Positions 14,409-27,675 of a DNA stretch of 28,078 nt are shown in pieces. Each line of letters opens with the position of its first letter. The first letter of the stretch is position 1. Position numbers and translations under genes: made by a program. The notes under the pieces were generated by a model, which did not search any database, had not been told where the DNA came from, and worked only from the letters and a program-made list of their open reading frames with translations. Origin of the DNA: a virus; the IMG/VR virus record IMGVR_UViG_3300025276_000165, positions 1 through 28,078 of that record. The stretch is one strand, 5' to 3'.

Positions 14409-14792
14409 TTATTTCTCTCTTTGAACACCCTTAGTTTTTTCTACGGTACGCATAGCGCCTAGACCTAGCATACCCATGAGAACAGTTGTAAGCAGTGAGC
14501 TGTCAACAGGAGGTACAGTAAACCAGATGCCTAAGATAGGGGATAGGATTGTAGAGTAGACTAGAGCAAAGCAACATGACCAACCGACTGCTGGTCTCCA
14601 GCCTGCTACAAATAGATTCTTGTGTGCCGCCTCTACCTTATTGACTTCCAACTGGCCCTTGGATAACTCTAAGGCATGACGCTCTGCCATAGTACTAATT
14701 TCGTGTGCTAAAGCATTCTTAGTATCTTTATCTTCAATAAATTTATCTAATAAAGAAGTTACTGGACTAATTAAACTATTTAAAATACTCAT
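14409..14792 (-). CDS. Holin, 3TM gene-transfer-agent type
   Basis: A 127-aa membrane protein matching the family of three-TM holins first described in gene transfer agents (PF11351 type). It has a helical N-terminal part (ISPVTSLLDKFIEDKD), then the signature AGWRPAVGW at ~63-71 leading into hydrophobic segments (~66-92), then a last hydrophobic segment LLTTVLMGMLGLGAMRTVEK (~100-119). Holins permeabilise the inner membrane so that the endolysin reaches the wall. A consensus promoter has its -10 box ending only two bases before this ATG and no Shine-Dalgarno is visible, so this start would depend on read-through from upstream. A second small membrane protein gene lies just upstream. Confidence 0.8.
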   Translation of the reverse strand: MSILNSLISPVTSLLDKFIEDKDTKNALAHEISTMAERHALELSKGQLEVNKVEAAHKNLFVAGWRPAVGWSCCFALVYSTILSPILGIWFTVPPVDSSLLTTVLMGMLGLGAMRTVEKTKGVQREK

Positions 14793-20627: not shown

Positions 20628-21569
20628 TTACTTAACAGCTAGGTTAAAGCCAGCTTCAGGACGCATAACCTGACAACCGTACAGAGTATCAGCAGTATAC
20701 AGAGTGCCTAAGAACTCCTGCTTGTACTGAGTCTGTGAACGTACAGCTTGCTGCTCTGCAAGAACACTGGTGTCCTTGTGGATTAGCTGGGCAGCACGTA
20801 CCTTAATAGCGTCAGTTGGGTCCATGATGGGGCAGTTAGTAGATACAAATACATCTACACCATACAAGTTACCAATCTTACCTGTTTCAACAGACTTGCC
20901 GTTAACAAAGTCAGTAGAGGTATAACGATCAATGCCCATGATCTGATTACGCAGAGTAGGTGGTACAATGAAGCTACGACCGTCCATAGGTACGTCTGCA
21001 TCGTCCATCTTCTGAATCAAGTCACGGAATACCCTGTCAGAGAAAGCACCAATGTCAGCCTGACCGTCAATGTCAAAAGCTTCCAAAGCACCAGAAGTAG
21101 TGTTGATCTGGAAAGAGCCAGTGTTGACCCAGCTAGAACCGTTACCGTTACCGAACTTCTTACCTAGTAAAAACAGATCGTCATCTACCTGCTTTGCCAA
21201 GCCGTAGCCTGCATCACCAGTGTAGAACTGACGTAGTGAGGACAATGCCTGCACTTCAGTAATGTCTTCAATCAAACGTGAGAATTCAAAGTGCTTGTCA
21301 ATGTTAATCAAGACTTCAGATTCTACGTTGTTTTGAATAGTTACAGCAGTGTTAGCTGCCTTAGCTGTAGCTGAACCACGGATAGGCTTAGGGACGTGAA
21401 TAACATCGCCCTTCTTGCCTGTCATGCTCATCTTCTTTACTAGGTTAGCAAGAACCAAGTTAGTCTGGTAAGCAGCGATTACCTCGTCACTCCAGATTTC
21501 TGGGATAAATTTAGCGGCTGAAGTATTGTCTACTGCTCCGCCCATGTTGGGATATACTGATGTAGTCAT
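20628..21569 (-). CDS. Major capsid protein
   Basis: A 313-aa protein with the plan of HK97-fold capsid proteins in marine podoviruses: N-terminal FIPEIWSDEVIAAYQTNLVL (~21-40), GKKGDVIHVPKPI, the strand-rich LINIDKHFEFSRLIEDITEVQ (~90-110), AKQVDDDLFLLG (~126-137), a conserved middle FRDLIQKMDDADVPMDGRSFIVPP (~186-209) and a C-terminal TLYGCQVMRPEAGF. It directly follows a scaffold gene and precedes a terminator, as usual for the most abundant virion protein. A strong ribosome site AAAGGAA lies 8 bases before the ATG. No delta-domain is obvious, in agreement with the separate scaffold. Confidence 0.88.
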   Translation of the reverse strand: MTTSVYPNMGGAVDNTSAAKFIPEIWSDEVIAAYQTNLVLANLVKKMSMTGKKGDVIHVPKPIRGSATAKAANTAVTIQNNVESEVLINIDKHFEFSRLIEDITEVQALSSLRQFYTGDAGYGLAKQVDDDLFLLGKKFGNGNGSSWVNTGSFQINTTSGALEAFDIDGQADIGAFSDRVFRDLIQKMDDADVPMDGRSFIVPPTLRNQIMGIDRYTSTDFVNGKSVETGKIGNLYGVDVFVSTNCPIMDPTDAIKVRAAQLIHKDTSVLAEQQAVRSQTQYKQEFLGTLYTADTLYGCQVMRPEAGFNLAVK

Positions 21570-21594: not shown

Positions 21595-22368
21595 TTAACG
21601 GACTCTCCCTGTAGCATACGCTTGAGTAATCTCGTCACTCAAGGACAAATACCTTTCAGGATCATCCTTCATAAGTTTAATAATGTCTGATCGTCTATAG
21701 ACTTTACGTGAGCTGGCTTCACCGCTGCCAGTAGCTCCTCCAGTGGAGGCATTCTTAACAGCTTTCTTACGCTCCGTTTTCTCTGTTGCTACCGTTTGAC
21801 TGATAGCGCCCTGTCGTTCCTTCCAGTTGGTAAACAGTTCATCTGCTGCCTCATGGTCGTAACCTTGATCCGCTTGAACAAATAGCTGTGTCCGAATCTT
21901 TGAACCTTTAATCCATTCTGCAAACTTAGGGTCTGTAACTATATCCTGCATATCAGGATGTCTAGTAGCTAACTGACTCAAAGCTGTAGTTTGTTTGTAC
22001 TGCTGAGTTTGTGCTTCAGCGGCTTTGATTGAAGGGTGATTCTTAATAGCCTTTGCTACTGCTTTATCTGGGTCAGAGAAAAAGTCTATTTCTTCTTCAG
22101 GTTCTTGTGTTGGGGTGTCGAGTTGTGTCTGTATGTAGCTATCAACTACTGAACGAAGTTCTCCAACTTCACTGCTCTGACGACCCAATAGCTTCTCAGC
22201 TTCTTGGTGCATCCTTACTATATCAGCAGTGGACTTTCCTTTGTATTTGTCAGGGATGTCATCTTCAGGGCTTGTCTGTTCTACAACAGGTTCCTCTGTT
22301 ATTAGACCTACTTCTTCATGTTCGTTAATTTCTTCTTCTTTAAGACGCTCGTCATGTAGTGTTGCCAT
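21595..22368 (-). CDS. Capsid scaffolding protein
   Basis: A 257-aa, acidic, mostly helical protein just upstream of the capsid gene. The first ~55 residues are very acidic and disordered (KEEEINEHEEVGLITEEPV), then comes helix with DKYKGKSTADIVRMHQEAEKLLGRQ (~41-65), a feature common in phage scaffolds. The middle includes DFFSDPDKAVAKAIKNHP (~95-112) and HPDMQDIVTDPKFAEWI. A basic C-terminal region (~195-235, RKKAVKNAS...SSRKVYRRSDIIKLM) would be the capsid-binding part. The size is close to T7 gp9 (~300 aa). Scaffolds line the procapsid and leave before DNA fills it. Confidence 0.85.
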   Translation of the reverse strand: MATLHDERLKEEEINEHEEVGLITEEPVVEQTSPEDDIPDKYKGKSTADIVRMHQEAEKLLGRQSSEVGELRSVVDSYIQTQLDTPTQEPEEEIDFFSDPDKAVAKAIKNHPSIKAAEAQTQQYKQTTALSQLATRHPDMQDIVTDPKFAEWIKGSKIRTQLFVQADQGYDHEAADELFTNWKERQGAISQTVATEKTERKKAVKNASTGGATGSGEASSRKVYRRSDIIKLMKDDPERYLSLSDEITQAYATGRVR

Positions 22369-22422: not shown

Positions 22423-22653
22423 TTAGGAGTTAGCCTTACGCTCTAGTGCTAACTTCTGCGCTCTGTTCTTCTCCCACTTACGGGTGGCTGCTGGTGAGTC
22501 ACCGTAGATAGGACACAACTTGATGCGCGGAGGTGTTAGTACTTTCTTAGACAGTTTACCACATACTGAACATGGTATGTCTAATGTGTCGGTAGATACG
22601 AAGCGTTCAGTCATATGATCGTCTTCGCACTTAAAATCAAACAGTAAAGCCAC
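22423..22653 (-). CDS. FmdB-type zinc-ribbon protein (76 aa)
   Basis: MALLFDFKC starts a small ribbon resembling the FmdB/CxxC_SSSS regulatory ribbon: a first half with C9 and H13 (FKCEDDHMTERFV), then IPCSVCGKLSKKVL with the C-x2-C pair at 28/31. A Cys at 47 follows in IKLCPIYGD. The C-terminal 20 residues are charged helix (WEKNRAQKLALERKA). The first knuckle is C-x3-H rather than C-x2-C. Such ribbons precede structural genes in many marine phages, with unknown role. It overlaps the upstream 80-aa gene by one base (TAATG). Confidence 0.75.
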   Translation of the reverse strand: MALLFDFKCEDDHMTERFVSTDTLDIPCSVCGKLSKKVLTPPRIKLCPIYGDSPAATRKWEKNRAQKLALERKANS

Positions 22654-22895
22654 TAGTCGTCACTCTCTAGCTGCTGCTTCTCAGCGTTGTCTATTTGATT
22701 CTCTAGGTTCAGGATGTTAGACATGACAAGCAGTTGACCCTTGCGGGTGTACAAGTCCTCTATATCCTTACTAAATTCTATAGAGTTTACCAATTCAGCG
22801 TTAGCTTTAACGTCTTCAATAAAGGTTTTCCAACCTTCAGTTCTAAACATCTGACGCAGATTACGGTAATACAACTCTAGTTCTGGTTCAATCAT
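22653..22895 (-). CDS. Hypothetical helical protein (80 aa)
   Basis: First gene downstream of the promoter at 22942-22970, with a leader of about 40 bases containing AGGGAG before the ATG. The protein is acidic and helical: MIEPELELYYRNLRQMF, then GWKTFIEDVKANAELVNSI, then YTRKGQLLVMSNILNLENQI and a charged tail. The pattern LYTRKGQL-x-x-L near the middle is shared by small proteins between portal and scaffold in other podoviruses, as far as I recall. I do not know its function. The late context suggests a head assembly factor. Confidence 0.7.
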   Translation of the reverse strand: MIEPELELYYRNLRQMFRTEGWKTFIEDVKANAELVNSIEFSKDIEDLYTRKGQLLVMSNILNLENQIDNAEKQQLESDD

Positions 22896-22941: not shown

Positions 22942-22970
22942 ATTATAACATATTAGCATAAGAAAGTCAA
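22942..22970 (-). promoter_or_regulatory. Sigma70-type promoter P2 (capsid unit), extended -10
   Basis: On the - strand: TTGACT (22965-22970), 17-bp spacer, TATAAT (22942-22947), with TGT directly before the -10 (extended -10). The expected start is near 22935, 40 bases before the 80-aa gene. It lies in the only open gap (22896-22997) between portal and capsid clusters and should drive scaffold and capsid. Confidence 0.9.
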
Positions 22971-22997: not shown

Positions 22998-23174
22998 TTA
23001 GCGACCACCACCGCCTTTCTTTACCTTAGGTGCTGCTCTTTTCTTCTTAGCTGTAGCAGCCTTTAAGTAACCAGCAGGGCTAATGCTTGTGCTTCCTACA
23101 TTTCGCTGAAGTGCCATTTTTTTCTTAGCTGGTCTGCCTACTTTAGTACCGTATGTTCCTTTACCTTGTGGCAT
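22998..23174 (-). CDS. Small very basic protein (58 aa)
   Basis: The product begins MPQGKGTYGTKVGRPAKKKM and ends KKKRAAPKVKKGGGGR. It has 16 Lys/Arg among 58 residues and no Asp or Glu. VGRP-A-KKK resembles an AT-hook (GRP in a basic setting), and the middle (ALQRNVGSTSISPAGYL) is uncharged. The start lies two bases after the stop of the next basic gene. It probably binds DNA or RNA; a virion nucleic-acid-binding protein is one option. Small frames starting MPQGKGTYG are seen in other phages, which supports it. Last gene before promoter P2. Confidence 0.75.
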   Translation of the reverse strand: MPQGKGTYGTKVGRPAKKKMALQRNVGSTSISPAGYLKAATAKKKRAAPKVKKGGGGR

Positions 23175-23176
23175 GT

Positions 23177-23320
23177 TTACTTCCTCTTAGTTGTTTTAGA
23201 TGCTTGTTTAAATGCCTTTGCTGTAGGCGCTCCTTTACTTCCTGCTTTTCTCATTTTTTCTTTTGATCCAGATGCAATACGTTTTCGTTTAGCGTGGATG
23301 TTGTCATAAAGACCAGCCAT
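23177..23320 (-). CDS. Small basic protein, GLYDNIHAKRKRI type (47 aa)
   Basis: The product starts MAGLYDNIHAKRKRIASGSK and ends KAFKQASKTTKRK. It has 15 Lys/Arg and two acidic residues in 47. The pattern GLY-x-NIHAKRKRI-x-x-GS-x-EKMRK-x-GSKGAPT is well conserved in small phage proteins of marine and environmental viruses, function unknown. AGAGG sits 7 bases before the ATG. Probably nucleic-acid-binding and perhaps packed in the head; no data here prove it. Confidence 0.85.
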   Translation of the reverse strand: MAGLYDNIHAKRKRIASGSKEKMRKAGSKGAPTAKAFKQASKTTKRK

Positions 23321-23324
23321 CTTA

Positions 23325-23579
23325 TTACCTCTTTGACTTAGCGCCTGAGCATTTCCATCTCTTGCGTGATAGGTTGTTAGGTGTGTTCGGATCGTTTTGC
23401 TTTTTCTTAGATAAGCCTTTCTTAATACCTAGGCTTCTGGCACAGTAGCTGTCACCTTTAGAAGTCCCCGCTCTTACACGAGGGCCTCCGTCTTTAGCTT
23501 TACCTGCTTGTCCGAAGCTTACCTTCTTGCCACTAGAGGTTACTTTGACTTTGGCTTTACCTTGCCTTGGCTTTGGCAT
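23325..23579 (-). CDS. Basic protein with SYCARS...W-x-C motif (84 aa)
   Basis: 84 residues with 25 Lys/Arg. The first half is low-complexity and basic (MPKPRQGKAKVKVTSSGKK). The second half has GDSYCARSLGIKKGL (42-56), then NDPNTPNNLSRKRWKCSG (62-79). The SYC-x-RS...DP-x-(S/T)-x-N-x-x-(S/R)-(R/K)K-x-W-x-C layout is frequent in small phage and virus proteins of unknown function; its two Cys could bind metal or be disulfide-linked. The ribosome site GAGGAG precedes the ATG. It overlaps the 45-aa gene by 40 bases in another frame. Confidence 0.82.
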   Translation of the reverse strand: MPKPRQGKAKVKVTSSGKKVSFGQAGKAKDGGPRVRAGTSKGDSYCARSLGIKKGLSKKKQNDPNTPNNLSRKRWKCSGAKSKR

Positions 23580-23677
23580 TTTAGCTCCTCCTCTAGTTTA
23601 GTTATCTTATTTCTAAGATCATCAAACTGTGTGTTAATCTGTGATACTACGTTTTCTAAGTCTCGTGTGCTTATCAT
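23540..23677 (-). CDS. Short coiled-coil protein (45 aa)
   Basis: Starts at a TAATG overlap with the portal stop: MISTRDLENVVSQINTQFDD, followed by LRNKITKLEEELKCQSQGK. Hydrophobic residues at heptad spacing (V10, I14, F18, L21, I25, L28, L32) predict one coiled-coil helix. The last 13 codons overlap the start of the 84-aa basic gene. Tight coupling to portal and good heptads support it; the function is unknown, perhaps a small head-assembly helper. Confidence 0.65.
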   Translation of the reverse strand: MISTRDLENVVSQINTQFDDLRNKITKLEEELKCQSQGKVKPKSK

Positions 23678-25650
23678 TATTGTGTTGGCCTTTCTGGTTT
23701 ATTGGCGTTACCCTCAATGACTGCAATATTGCGTTCTTTGAGGAGCTGATCAGAAATCTTCAAACGTCTTTCAAACTCTTTATCGTCTGCTGTTCCTACT
23801 GCTAGGTTAGTGGTCGCTGCTTTCATGCGATCAATCTCTAACTCTTGTGGTATGGCCTGTGTTTCCGCTGCCATCTTGCCTGCTCTAGCCGCAGACTCTT
23901 CTGCCTGTCCATTGAGTGCAGCAGTCTGTGACGCTTGGAATGCCATCTGTGCTTGCTGTGCTTCCTGTGCTGCCTGCTGTGCTGCTTGCTCTTGCTCAGG
24001 GTTAGGCGTATTAGCTTGCTCAAGTGTAGCAATAAGCTCTTCACGGTTAGACAAGTTCATGTTATCAATGATGGACATAACCAGCTTAGGATACATAGGC
24101 GTGTCTGGAGACATGGTTTGTAGCAACTGTACAAGCTGTGTAACCTCATACTCACGGGCAATGATACCCAAGGAACTAGAAGTATGGAACTTGTAATCAC
24201 CTACAGGATACATCTCAGGCTGAAACTGCATATACCTATATGCTGCTTTCTCTACAAAAGGAATCAGGAAAGCCTCTTGGAAGTTAATAAGCGTACGTTT
24301 ATGACGCTTTATAACAGCACCTAAGCTCATAGAAATACCAGCAGCAGTAGACTCACCGTTGACTGACCCAGCAATACCAGCACTGTCAATAGCGCCTGTA
24401 GCTGTCTGTACCATTGTCTGCAAAGCTTGTGCTTGTGAAAAGGTAATCTGATTAACCTGACCAAAGTTAAATGGCTGTAGGATTTCAGCAGGGTTACCGT
24501 TAGTAAGAATAACTTTTCCTGGCCTAATCTCTGGTTTAGCGCCACGAGGCATACGACTAGCGTCCATTGCCATCATAGGGTGTATAGTAAGAGCAAGGGC
24601 ATCAATACGTGCGCGTAGTTCTGTGTCAAGGGCTTTCTGTGAGTTATAACCTTTCTCACATACACCACGACCCCAGAAGCGGCTAGGGACTACATCCCAT
24701 GGGAATGCCACGATAGGACGGTCTTGCATCATATAGGGGTTTTCTGTAGCCTTAAGTAACGTACCACCGTTAGCAATAACTACTACAGCTTCAACGTAGT
24801 AAGAATCGTCATCTTCATCATCTGTTAAGGTGACTTCTTCTTCGTCATCTGTTTCTTCCTGTGCGTCAACTAACAAGTGACGAGGAACAAGACCGTAGTA
24901 CTTAGTAAGACGTACCTTATCGTCAGAGTATGCATCTAAGTCTTGATCAGGTTCAAGCTCAAAGTCACTAGATGATGTATGGATAGGCTCATCACGGTAG
25001 ACACCGCTCTCTTGTAGCTGCTCAACTTTATGCTCAGATACAAATTCATCTACAGCACAACCTAAAGCTTCCTCAATGGATGTAGCTACCGGATCAATAA
25101 GGAAATTCTGAGGCATGACAGGACGTAGCTTAACGCAAGTACGGTCTCTAGTTGTGACACCCACGGCTTGTAGCTCACCACCCATGACAGGTTCAGTAGC
25201 GGGGGCCATCTCTTTTTCTTCTTCCAGTACTACTTCAGCAATACCTGTACCAAAGACAGCAGCGTTAATCAAGCACTCTGCTACAGCTTTACGTACTTTG
25301 TTCTTCTTAAAGTCTTGCTCAAGATGCTTACGTAGCATAGCAATGTCTGCGCTGTCTTGGTCATGGATGTCATCTTTAATGTCAAACCATATACCACGGC
25401 CAAAGGTAGCTTCCTCTAGCTCCGCTACTGATGACTCTACTGCCTGCTGGAGTGCAGGAGAAATAATCTTAGAACGCTCAGTTGTCCGTACTTGGTCTTC
25501 TGCCGCCCATTGCCCACGCCAAAGTCTATAGTACTCCTCAAATCTATCAGAGTAATTAGCTTCATAATGATCTCTCCAGCTACTGCACTTGGTCATTACC
25601 CAGCCTTCAAGAGTCTCGCTTATCAGATCATCTGTCTTGTCTTCATACAT
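23677..25650 (-). CDS. Portal protein
   Basis: A 657-aa protein directly after the large terminase gene (two-base gap), the normal place of the portal. The N-terminal part is helical with YEANYSDRFEEYYRLWRGQW (~28-47) and VAECLINAAVFGTGIAEVVL (~142-161), as in podoviral portals. The centre has an Asp/Glu-rich loop (EETDDEEEVTLTDDEDDDSY, ~265-284) and the conserved FPWDVVPSRFWGRGVCEKG (~314-332). The second half has RPGKVILTNGNPAEILQPF and the helix-rich FGQVNQITFSQAQALQTM; the C-terminus (~560-620) is Gln/Ala-rich. The portal is the dodecameric DNA gate and packaging motor dock. The acidic loop is a local feature that I cannot assign. Confidence 0.9.
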   Translation of the reverse strand: MYEDKTDDLISETLEGWVMTKCSSWRDHYEANYSDRFEEYYRLWRGQWAAEDQVRTTERSKIISPALQQAVESSVAELEEATFGRGIWFDIKDDIHDQDSADIAMLRKHLEQDFKKNKVRKAVAECLINAAVFGTGIAEVVLEEEKEMAPATEPVMGGELQAVGVTTRDRTCVKLRPVMPQNFLIDPVATSIEEALGCAVDEFVSEHKVEQLQESGVYRDEPIHTSSSDFELEPDQDLDAYSDDKVRLTKYYGLVPRHLLVDAQEETDDEEEVTLTDDEDDDSYYVEAVVVIANGGTLLKATENPYMMQDRPIVAFPWDVVPSRFWGRGVCEKGYNSQKALDTELRARIDALALTIHPMMAMDASRMPRGAKPEIRPGKVILTNGNPAEILQPFNFGQVNQITFSQAQALQTMVQTATGAIDSAGIAGSVNGESTAAGISMSLGAVIKRHKRTLINFQEAFLIPFVEKAAYRYMQFQPEMYPVGDYKFHTSSSLGIIAREYEVTQLVQLLQTMSPDTPMYPKLVMSIIDNMNLSNREELIATLEQANTPNPEQEQAAQQAAQEAQQAQMAFQASQTAALNGQAEESAARAGKMAAETQAIPQELEIDRMKAATTNLAVGTADDKEFERRLKISDQLLKERNIAVIEGNANKPERPTQ

Positions 25651-26906: not shown

Positions 26907-27281
26907 CTAGTAGCACCACATTACAGGAGACTCATTACCGTCAAGATCGCGGATGTCAACATGCACAAAGCTACCAGCAATTCCAATTCCCGTAAAGCCC
27001 ATCTTAATGGCCTCTTCAATAATCTTATAACGCTGTGTACCATTGGTGACTTTAATATCTGCGGCAATACCTTGGGCATGAGTTCCTGCTTTCTCCTTCT
27101 CTCTTTCAATTGGGTGGTCTACTGATCTATAACCACTCGTGATAACGAAGGGAAACTCACACCTTGTTCGTAACAAATCTAACTTTAATAGTAGTCTATC
27201 ACTGATGTTGTTCTCACCTGTGTACTGACAGGCAAACTCTTCTCTAGTGAAGTAATCTAAATCATTGTTAATGTTATACAT
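26907..27281 (-). CDS. M15 peptidase endolysin (124 aa)
   Basis: Matches the D-Ala-D-Ala carboxypeptidase/L-Ala-D-Glu endopeptidase family M15 (M15_3 type): SGYRS (49-53), zinc-binding GTHAQGIAADI (66-76) with H68 and D75, then SFVHVDI (104-110) with H107. D109 next to the last His is typical. It is 124 aa if started at ATG 27281, which follows AAGGGG at a fair distance; a TTG at 27299 would add six residues. No signal peptide or anchor, so it needs a holin, and two holin candidates lie at 14409-14984. Its place between the terminase genes is unusual. It overlaps terS by 8 bases and abuts terL. Confidence 0.88.
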   Translation of the reverse strand: MYNINNDLDYFTREEFACQYTGENNISDRLLLKLDLLRTRCEFPFVITSGYRSVDHPIEREKEKAGTHAQGIAADIKVTNGTQRYKIIEEAIKMGFTGIGIAGSFVHVDIRDLDGNESPVMWCY

Positions 27282-27675
27282 CAGTGTAGTCCCCTTCAAT
27301 GGGTTCTTTATTACCAGAGATCACAGTGGTTTCCCCACCTACCCCAGTAATGGATATATTAATAGCGTTACTACCACCGTTTAGCTTGTCCTTCTCAAAG
27401 TAGCTGACGGGTAGTAGTCTATCCATGCACAGCTTCCATGCCGCTGCTTGATTCTTATGGTCATCGTCCAAGGCAGCGTTAAGAATACTGTCCAACACCT
27501 TCCTACTCTTAGGGGATGCCAACATTCTAGCTTTGTATTCGTTAATGGTCGCTGCATCACCCTTGGGTCTGCCTACGGCCTGACGCTTACCTACGGTTTT
27601 TGACACAACATCTGCTTTCTTTGGTCTACCAACACGCTTTGCTGACTGACCACTCTTTGATTCTTTATTACTCAT
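27274..27675 (-). CDS. terS: Probable terminase small subunit
   Basis: A 133-aa protein preceding endolysin and large terminase genes. The N-terminus is basic with two GRPK motifs (VGRPKKAD, ~15-22, and VGRPKGDA, ~34-41), like AT-hooks. The centre is helical (INEYKARMLASPKSRKVLDS, ~44-63; NQAAAWKLCMDRLLP, ~75-89) and the C-terminus is beta (AINISITGVGGETTVI). The pattern HKNQAAAWKLCMDRLLPVS is common to small terminases of marine phages as annotated. Role: recognition of the packaging site and regulation of TerL. AAGGGA stands 8 bases before the ATG. It is the first gene of the late block after promoter P1. The function rests on position plus moderate resemblance. Confidence 0.8.
   Translation of the reverse strand: MSNKESKSGQSAKRVGRPKKADVVSKTVGKRQAVGRPKGDAATINEYKARMLASPKSRKVLDSILNAALDDDHKNQAAAWKLCMDRLLPVSYFEKDKLNGGSNAINISITGVGGETTVISGNKEPIEGDYTDV

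Follow-up and report, generated by a model that had tools for sequence, protein, structure and literature searches.

What are four tiny genes, three of them encoding extremely basic proteins, doing between portal and scaffold in a marine virus? The locus lies in a virus record of 28,078 bases and 30 genes, analysed here at its full length (the window), within a minus-strand run that encodes endolysin, terminase, portal, four tiny genes, two small genes, scaffold and capsid. The endolysin gene of this run (26907-27299, minus strand) is directly upstream of the terminase gene and far from the holin gene (14409-14792, minus strand).

Layout of the cassette

The features needed below are as follows, where "slot" means the portal-to-P80 stretch, compared between the window and 82 relatives found in viral contigs, 83 sequences in all.

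23677..25650, minus strand: portal protein, 657 aa, bounding the cassette on its upstream side (phrog_1216 portal, 2.9e-55; SU10_portal, 1.2e-27)
23540..23677, minus strand: P45, 45 aa, weakly charged, the least conserved (75/83 slots; dN/dS 0.382)
23325..23579, minus strand: P84, 84 aa, basic, YCARS...RKRWKC core (related to DUF6321, the FCARM type; a relation to the FKARH type is probable)
23177..23320, minus strand: P47, 47 aa, basic, phrog_16028 module (1.3e-22)
22998..23174, minus strand: P58, 58 aa, basic, conserved N-terminal MPxGKGTYGxxVGRPxKKK (at least 332 confirmed relatives)
22942..22970, minus strand: sigma-70 promoter-like TTGACT-17-TATAAT (11/12 matches), between the cassette and the P80, P76, scaffold and capsid genes
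22653..22895, minus strand: P80, 80 aa, downstream boundary of the swap slot (tblastn, 81/86 relatives; dN/dS 0.196)
22423..22653, minus strand: P76, FmdB-like zinc-ribbon (Zn_ribbon_8 at 18.7 bits, below the Pfam cut-off of 34.4)
21595..22368, minus strand: scaffold protein (phrog_19777 head scaffolding, 1.1e-5)
20628..21569, minus strand: major capsid protein (phrog_267, 4.3e-50)

A preliminary description of this DNA had reported four tightly packed tiny genes after the portal gene, and all four are indeed found on the minus strand at 22998-23677, downstream of portal, with gaps of 2 bases (P58/P47) and 4 bases (P47/P84), a 40-base overlap of the P45 and P84 frames, and a P45 start sharing 1 base with the portal stop. 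Their placement between portal and scaffold is likewise right, with P80, P76 and a conserved promoter also intervening before the scaffold gene. P76-type FmdB-like zinc-ribbon proteins occur in the head modules of 79/86 relatives.

A promoter with at least 11/12 matches lies no more than 150 nt upstream of P80 in 71 of the 83 sequences, as against 1/83 after shuffling and 0/82 inside the portal gene. Judging from this near-consensus sequence, the portal transcription unit appears to close with the cassette, and transcription of scaffold and capsid appears to have its own start.

Charge and selection

Three of the four proteins are strongly basic, as had been described, with Lys+Arg over Asp+Glu counts of 16/0 (P58), 15/2 (P47) and 25/3 (P84); P45, at 9/7, is near neutral and falls outside the basic set, and its only matches are of coiled-coil type, all sub-cutoff. 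Net charges of +13 over 47 residues (P47), +16 over 58 (P58) and +22 over 84 (P84) make these proteins small and basic in the manner of T4-type internal proteins, and their net charge per residue (0.26-0.28) stands apart from that of the next among the 30 window genes (0.053; median -0.01).

The reading frames are also conserved, a check that the preliminary description had proposed. Median pairwise dN/dS is 0.074 for the P84 type (273 pairs), 0.099 for P47 (21 pairs, those of 118 that qualified), 0.288 for the P58 family (817 pairs) and 0.382 for P45 (782 pairs), compared with 0.107 for portal (40 sampled sequences) and 0.153 for capsid; these values come from pairs with dS of 0.1-1.5, which are not independent of one another. 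P84 and P47 are thus under strong purifying selection, and the low ratios in all four indicate real genes rather than chance open reading frames.

One detail of the earlier description had to be dropped, namely the AT-hook-like reading of P58. The AT-hook core is RGRP; P58 reads VGRP instead, RGRP occurs in just 1 of 158 family members, and V precedes GRP in 139 of the family's 157 GTYG..GRP matches, so we reject P58 as an AT-hook protein. The family itself is widespread, with at least 332 relatives confirmed among 599 pattern matches in viral contigs. Its members reach down to 19 aa, the conserved head alone forming a free 19-aa ORF in CRP-171, and P-SCSP1u carries an unannotated short version.

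A swap slot between portal and P80

Across the 83 slots, a gene of the YCARS (P84) type is found in 48 and one of the FKARH type in 33, with neither in 2 and both in none; HMM re-scoring contributed to these counts by recovering a YCARS or FKARH gene in 6 of 8 slots that were empty by naive count. Since 25 of the slots came from outside the portal query (the window and loci from small-gene queries), with a bias toward the YCARS type, we redid the counts on the 58 portal-selected slots, of which 28 carry YCARS, 29 FKARH, one neither and none both. Exactly one member of the P84 superfamily is therefore present in 57 of these 58 slots, and two in none. This strict one-of-two rule suggests that the P84 type serves a required function that either form can supply.

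A quick maximum-likelihood tree of the portal (82 rows, 80 of them labelled) requires at least 16 changes between YCARS and FKARH, of which well supported branches force 11. The portal-P80 slot is a swap site in which other tiny, mostly basic families come and go: among the 83 slots we count VGRP (P58) in 60, a 41-aa HGGKG family in 56, QWSARK in 20, LKRWT in 19, NIHAKR (P47) in 14 and HKMPDG in 9. In one locus (L255) the portal is identical to that of the window over the compared columns, yet P47 is missing and an HGGKG gene is present instead. P47, P58 and the other tiny basic families look like optional companions.

The P84 superfamily

Profile comparison links P84 to the DUF6321-type alignment (P=96%, E 1e-9), whereas the links between YCARS and FKARH profiles (P=43%, E 2.4e-4) and between FKARH and DUF6321 profiles (P 59%, E 9.5e-5) are weak; intermediate sequences, for example in L077 and L048, make the superfamily link believable. 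P84 of the window has no match to the DUF6321 Pfam profile (PF19846) at E<=0.1, the gathering cut-off being 28.5 bits, and for this reason we file it as a relative of DUF6321 rather than a member; it is a profile-level relative, but its YCARS type has a different N-terminal half. A superfamily match also lies inside phrog_220, 'minor head protein and DNA pilot' (E 3.4e-5). No mention of DUF6321 was found in the open-access literature.

An AlphaFold2 model of P84 built from 30 sequences predicts a helical C-terminal half (pLDDT 85-88; helices at 40-54 and 67-74, short strands near the end) and a low-confidence N-terminal third, and P47 is predicted as two helices with a loop between them. Neither the P47 nor the P84-superfamily profile matched a PDB sequence at E<=1, and Foldseek returned no PDB fold match for the P84 model. 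A comparison by hhalign did not connect P47 with P84, and we therefore treat them as two families.

Among 18 annotated phage records, 16 hold one superfamily gene and none holds two, a rate that is biased because several of these records were fetched through the superfamily itself; in CRP-403 and CRP-171 no superfamily gene was found at the thresholds used. In CRP-7, gp64 (L009:3199-3342), a 47-aa KKDACYKK...KCRKVG protein, adjoins the YCARS gene and by eye resembles a segment of P-SSM2_123 (L330:4404-5219), possibly another module with free and fused forms.

P47 in distant marine phages

P47 is a clear member of phrog_16028, its residues 3-47 matching positions 5-49 of 50, 45 positions in all (1.3e-22); we saw no feature that sets it apart from this family, and the module reads GLY.NIHAKRKRI..GS.EKMRK.GSKGAPTAK.F. 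A tblastn search places it in 95 of 50,697 phage records, chiefly those of cyano-, pelagi- and roseophages, and in 84 of the 95 the identity is at least 60%; the window portal, by comparison, matches 27 phage records, all at less than 27% identity. Identity of P47 is about 61-83% across phages of cyanobacteria, SAR11 and roseobacters and a lake gammaproteobacterial phage. Its synonymous sites are near-saturated (median pS 0.79), which disfavours recent horizontal transfer as the sole cause of this conservation.

In seven of eight annotated records examined, P47 lies near portal, scaffold, capsid, terminase or tail genes, the neighbours in the eighth (CRP-4) carrying no names; in the T7-like marine phages examined, the module follows the scaffold or capsid gene. 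Furthermore, among 80 viral contigs picked by P47 alone, 56 have a superfamily gene within 1.5 kb (34 of the DUF6321/FCARM type, 17 FKARH and 5 YCARS), while of the other 24 contigs 17 had room but no such gene and 7 had little room. These 56 genes fall within 219 kb searched, against 6 in the 485 kb beyond, a 21-fold higher density near P47 than in the rest of the loci, and all 62 lie on the same strand as P47.

Homologues in T4-like cyanophages

The DUF6321 type matches 514 of the 50,697 phage records, mostly those of Synechococcus phages. Free-standing in T7-like marine phages, in the T4-like phages examined it forms the C-terminal domain of larger proteins, mostly encoded near the gp13-gp17 genes; relatives of the modules adjoin gp13-gp16, including the TerS gene gp16, and in Sf-FS3 the DUF6321 gene has a different neighbourhood. 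Both modules can even share one protein, as P47 and DUF6321 do in ACG-2014e gp95 and P-SSM7_194. A P47 module also sits near the C-terminus of P-HM1_163 (L336:1987-3294), a 435-aa 'possible cytitidyltransferase'. We considered and rejected the idea of many NIHAKR repeats per T4-like genome, because one phage's version, used as query, matched 1 of 8 records, and that once.

In T4, residues 4 and 7 of a capsid-targeting propeptide of 10-19 residues direct targeting, and residues 8 and 10 processing (PMC9026906, in the available text). A pattern with positions taken from that source, but written after a few such N-termini had been seen, fits 15 of 24 complete module proteins of up to 200 aa in T4-like cyanophages, against 18 of the 927 remaining ORFs with 60 aa or more in these loci (Fisher 3.6e-18); as the module proteins are related to each other, N-termini were also clustered, giving targeting-like starts in 4/10 versus 3/430 clusters (4.6e-6). 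None of 55 module proteins above 200 aa, S-CREM2 ORF137 included, has the pattern. In the module proteins of T4-like cyanophages, [ILV]xE occurs within three residues before the start of the DUF6321 module in 43 of 84 cases, compared with 369 of 2111 other Glu residues of the same proteins. A search of the open-access literature found capsid targeting and cyanophages mentioned together only in PMC9026906, once, and cyanophage alone in PMC12810830, within the text available for both.

The loci with T4-like DUF6321 genes also hold a second family of ~105 aa with a targeting-like start (L351, L361, L362, L378, L379, L393 and L401), a candidate internal protein. S-SZBM1_191 (L333:16312-16629) belongs to this family and directly adjoins the DUF6321 gene.

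Presence in virions

S-CREM2 ORF137 scores 44.7 bits against DUF6321, above the Pfam cut-off of 28.5, and is represented by 4 unique peptides in the available part of the published virion proteome (PMC10665884). The strict targeting pattern is absent from ORF137; of 93 S-CREM2 CDS tested, only ORF154 and ORF155 fit it, and both are in the virion proteome (PMC10665884), which on its own is weak evidence because a large share of those 93 genes encode virion proteins. ORF154 is a virion-associated cytidylyltransferase (L334:32609-33469), and its capsid-targeting-like N-terminus would explain how an enzyme enters the virion.

A contrary case is S-SZBM1, in which the pattern fits 2 of the 28 genes tested, _191 and _192, the latter also with DUF6321; neither is among the 30 virion proteins given in the available text (PMC9146016), though _192 yields few tryptic peptides of the length usually seen. 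From the proteins of the window, tryptic digestion is expected to yield a single peptide of 7-35 aa each for P47 and P58 and three for P84. DUF6321 proteins are labelled 'virion protein' in S-SCSM1 and 'structural protein' in Sf-FS3, the basis of these labels being unstated. The accessible portions of the P-SCSP1u cryo-EM paper and of the P-SSP7 and P-SS2 papers contain no mention of these tiny proteins that we could find.

The place in or near the head proposed in the preliminary description therefore receives indirect backing from several directions, namely the seven of eight P47 neighbourhoods, the gp13-gp16 adjacency, the targeting-like N-termini and, within the accessible proteome data, S-CREM2 ORF137.

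Discussion

We propose, as a reading with about an even chance of being correct, that P84, P47 and P58 are small proteins of the head interior that accompany the packaged DNA and bind it, playing in podoviruses the part of the T4 internal proteins. They would be made with the portal transcript and taken into the prohead, where their Lys and Arg residues would bind the packaged DNA, and on infection they would leave with it; the slot would need one P84-superfamily member, YCARS or FKARH, with P47, P58 and other tiny basic proteins optional and interchangeable. No capsid-targeting propeptide with a prohead-protease site was seen in the P84, P47 and P58 sequences, and head entry may instead proceed by binding to DNA, portal or scaffold. 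For this phage we infer presence in the virion, DNA binding and ejection from the comparisons above, and the nucleic-acid binding, condensing or counter-ion roles raised in the preliminary description may follow from charge and from the analogy with T4 internal proteins. T7 gp6.7 and gp7.3, small ejected virion proteins with genes near portal, are alike by description in their small size and gene position.

The T4 analogy has several parts. Within the available text, some 1000 molecules of internal protein are packed with the DNA of T4, and of the positively charged residues only the lysines of these proteins were seen contacting DNA phosphates (PMC3012670); the proteins are basic, number ~300-370 copies of each in a head, attach to DNA when salt is low and are in many cases ejected (PMC9026906). 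IPI, IPII and IPIII are likewise small, basic, diverse and exchangeable among related phages, as far as these sources describe them, whereas no targeting peptide was seen on the podoviral versions. Basic virion proteins proposed to neutralise DNA are also described for eukaryotic viruses (the PBCV-1 DNA-binding and the adenovirus and baculovirus protamine-like proteins), while the same source, in its available part, states against such a role that evidence is lacking for any large contribution of basic proteins to the neutralisation of DNA in phages (PMC3281028).

The proteins could instead never enter the virion, acting as late nucleic-acid or ribosome binders in the infected cell (in host shut-off, late translation or mRNA stability) and lying near head genes for the sake of late expression. 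P47 at 61-83% identity across hosts whose phage portals fall below 27%, with synonymous sites near saturation, does point to a universal rather than phage-specific target; we nevertheless regard this explanation as unlikely, as it sits poorly with capsid-targeting-like N-termini on the T4-like homologues and with a DUF6321 protein in the S-CREM2 virion, as reported in the accessible proteome data. Quite unlikely, in our view, is a role as assembly factors that are not retained, serving portal, scaffold or terminase in guiding DNA into the prohead. The head or packaging neighbourhood of P47 in 7/8 annotated records, the T4-like homologues beside TerS gp16 and the match within the 'minor head protein and DNA pilot' family phrog_220 (E 3.4e-5) would all suit such cofactors, but P47 is conserved though portals barely match, which gives no hint that it diverged together with a partner in the head, and S-CREM2 ORF137 is retained in the virion according to the same proteome data.

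Injected anti-defence proteins like T4 IPI*, swapped as host defences differ, would make sense of a slot that resembles the diverse T-even internal-protein set with its shared targeting sequence (PMC3012670, available text); each family here is highly conserved across unrelated hosts, unlike an arms-race protein, and we hold this to be very improbable. Finally, disruptins, amphipathic and helical antimicrobial peptides of short length that occur in phages without spanins (PMC12819732, accessible part), are matched by the short, cationic products and late gene region of the cassette, but an outer-membrane-breaking lysis role is scarcely credible for genes outside the lysis genes (holin 14409-14792, endolysin 26907-27299), for a P84 with a conserved Cys/Trp core whose superfamily forms the C-terminal domain of large proteins, and for homologues whose capsid-targeting-like N-termini would be senseless on lysis peptides.

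Returning to small head-internal proteins, marine phages commonly carry these unnamed small families (at least 590, at least 598 and at least 332 confirmed viral-contig relatives), and the one-of-two swap offers a ready genetic test. A broader and more doubtful possibility is that tailed phages of the sea draw on a common set of exchangeable mini-modules that bind DNA inside the head, kept as free slot genes in podoviruses and as prohead-protease-cut precursors, some of them capsid-targeted, in T4-like cyanophages. Were such a set real, it would amount to a protamine-like system of phages that also exists as a polyprotein. If the proteins are indeed head-internal and DNA-binding, the view on DNA neutralisation set out in the available text of PMC3281028 would need revision for abundant marine viruses.
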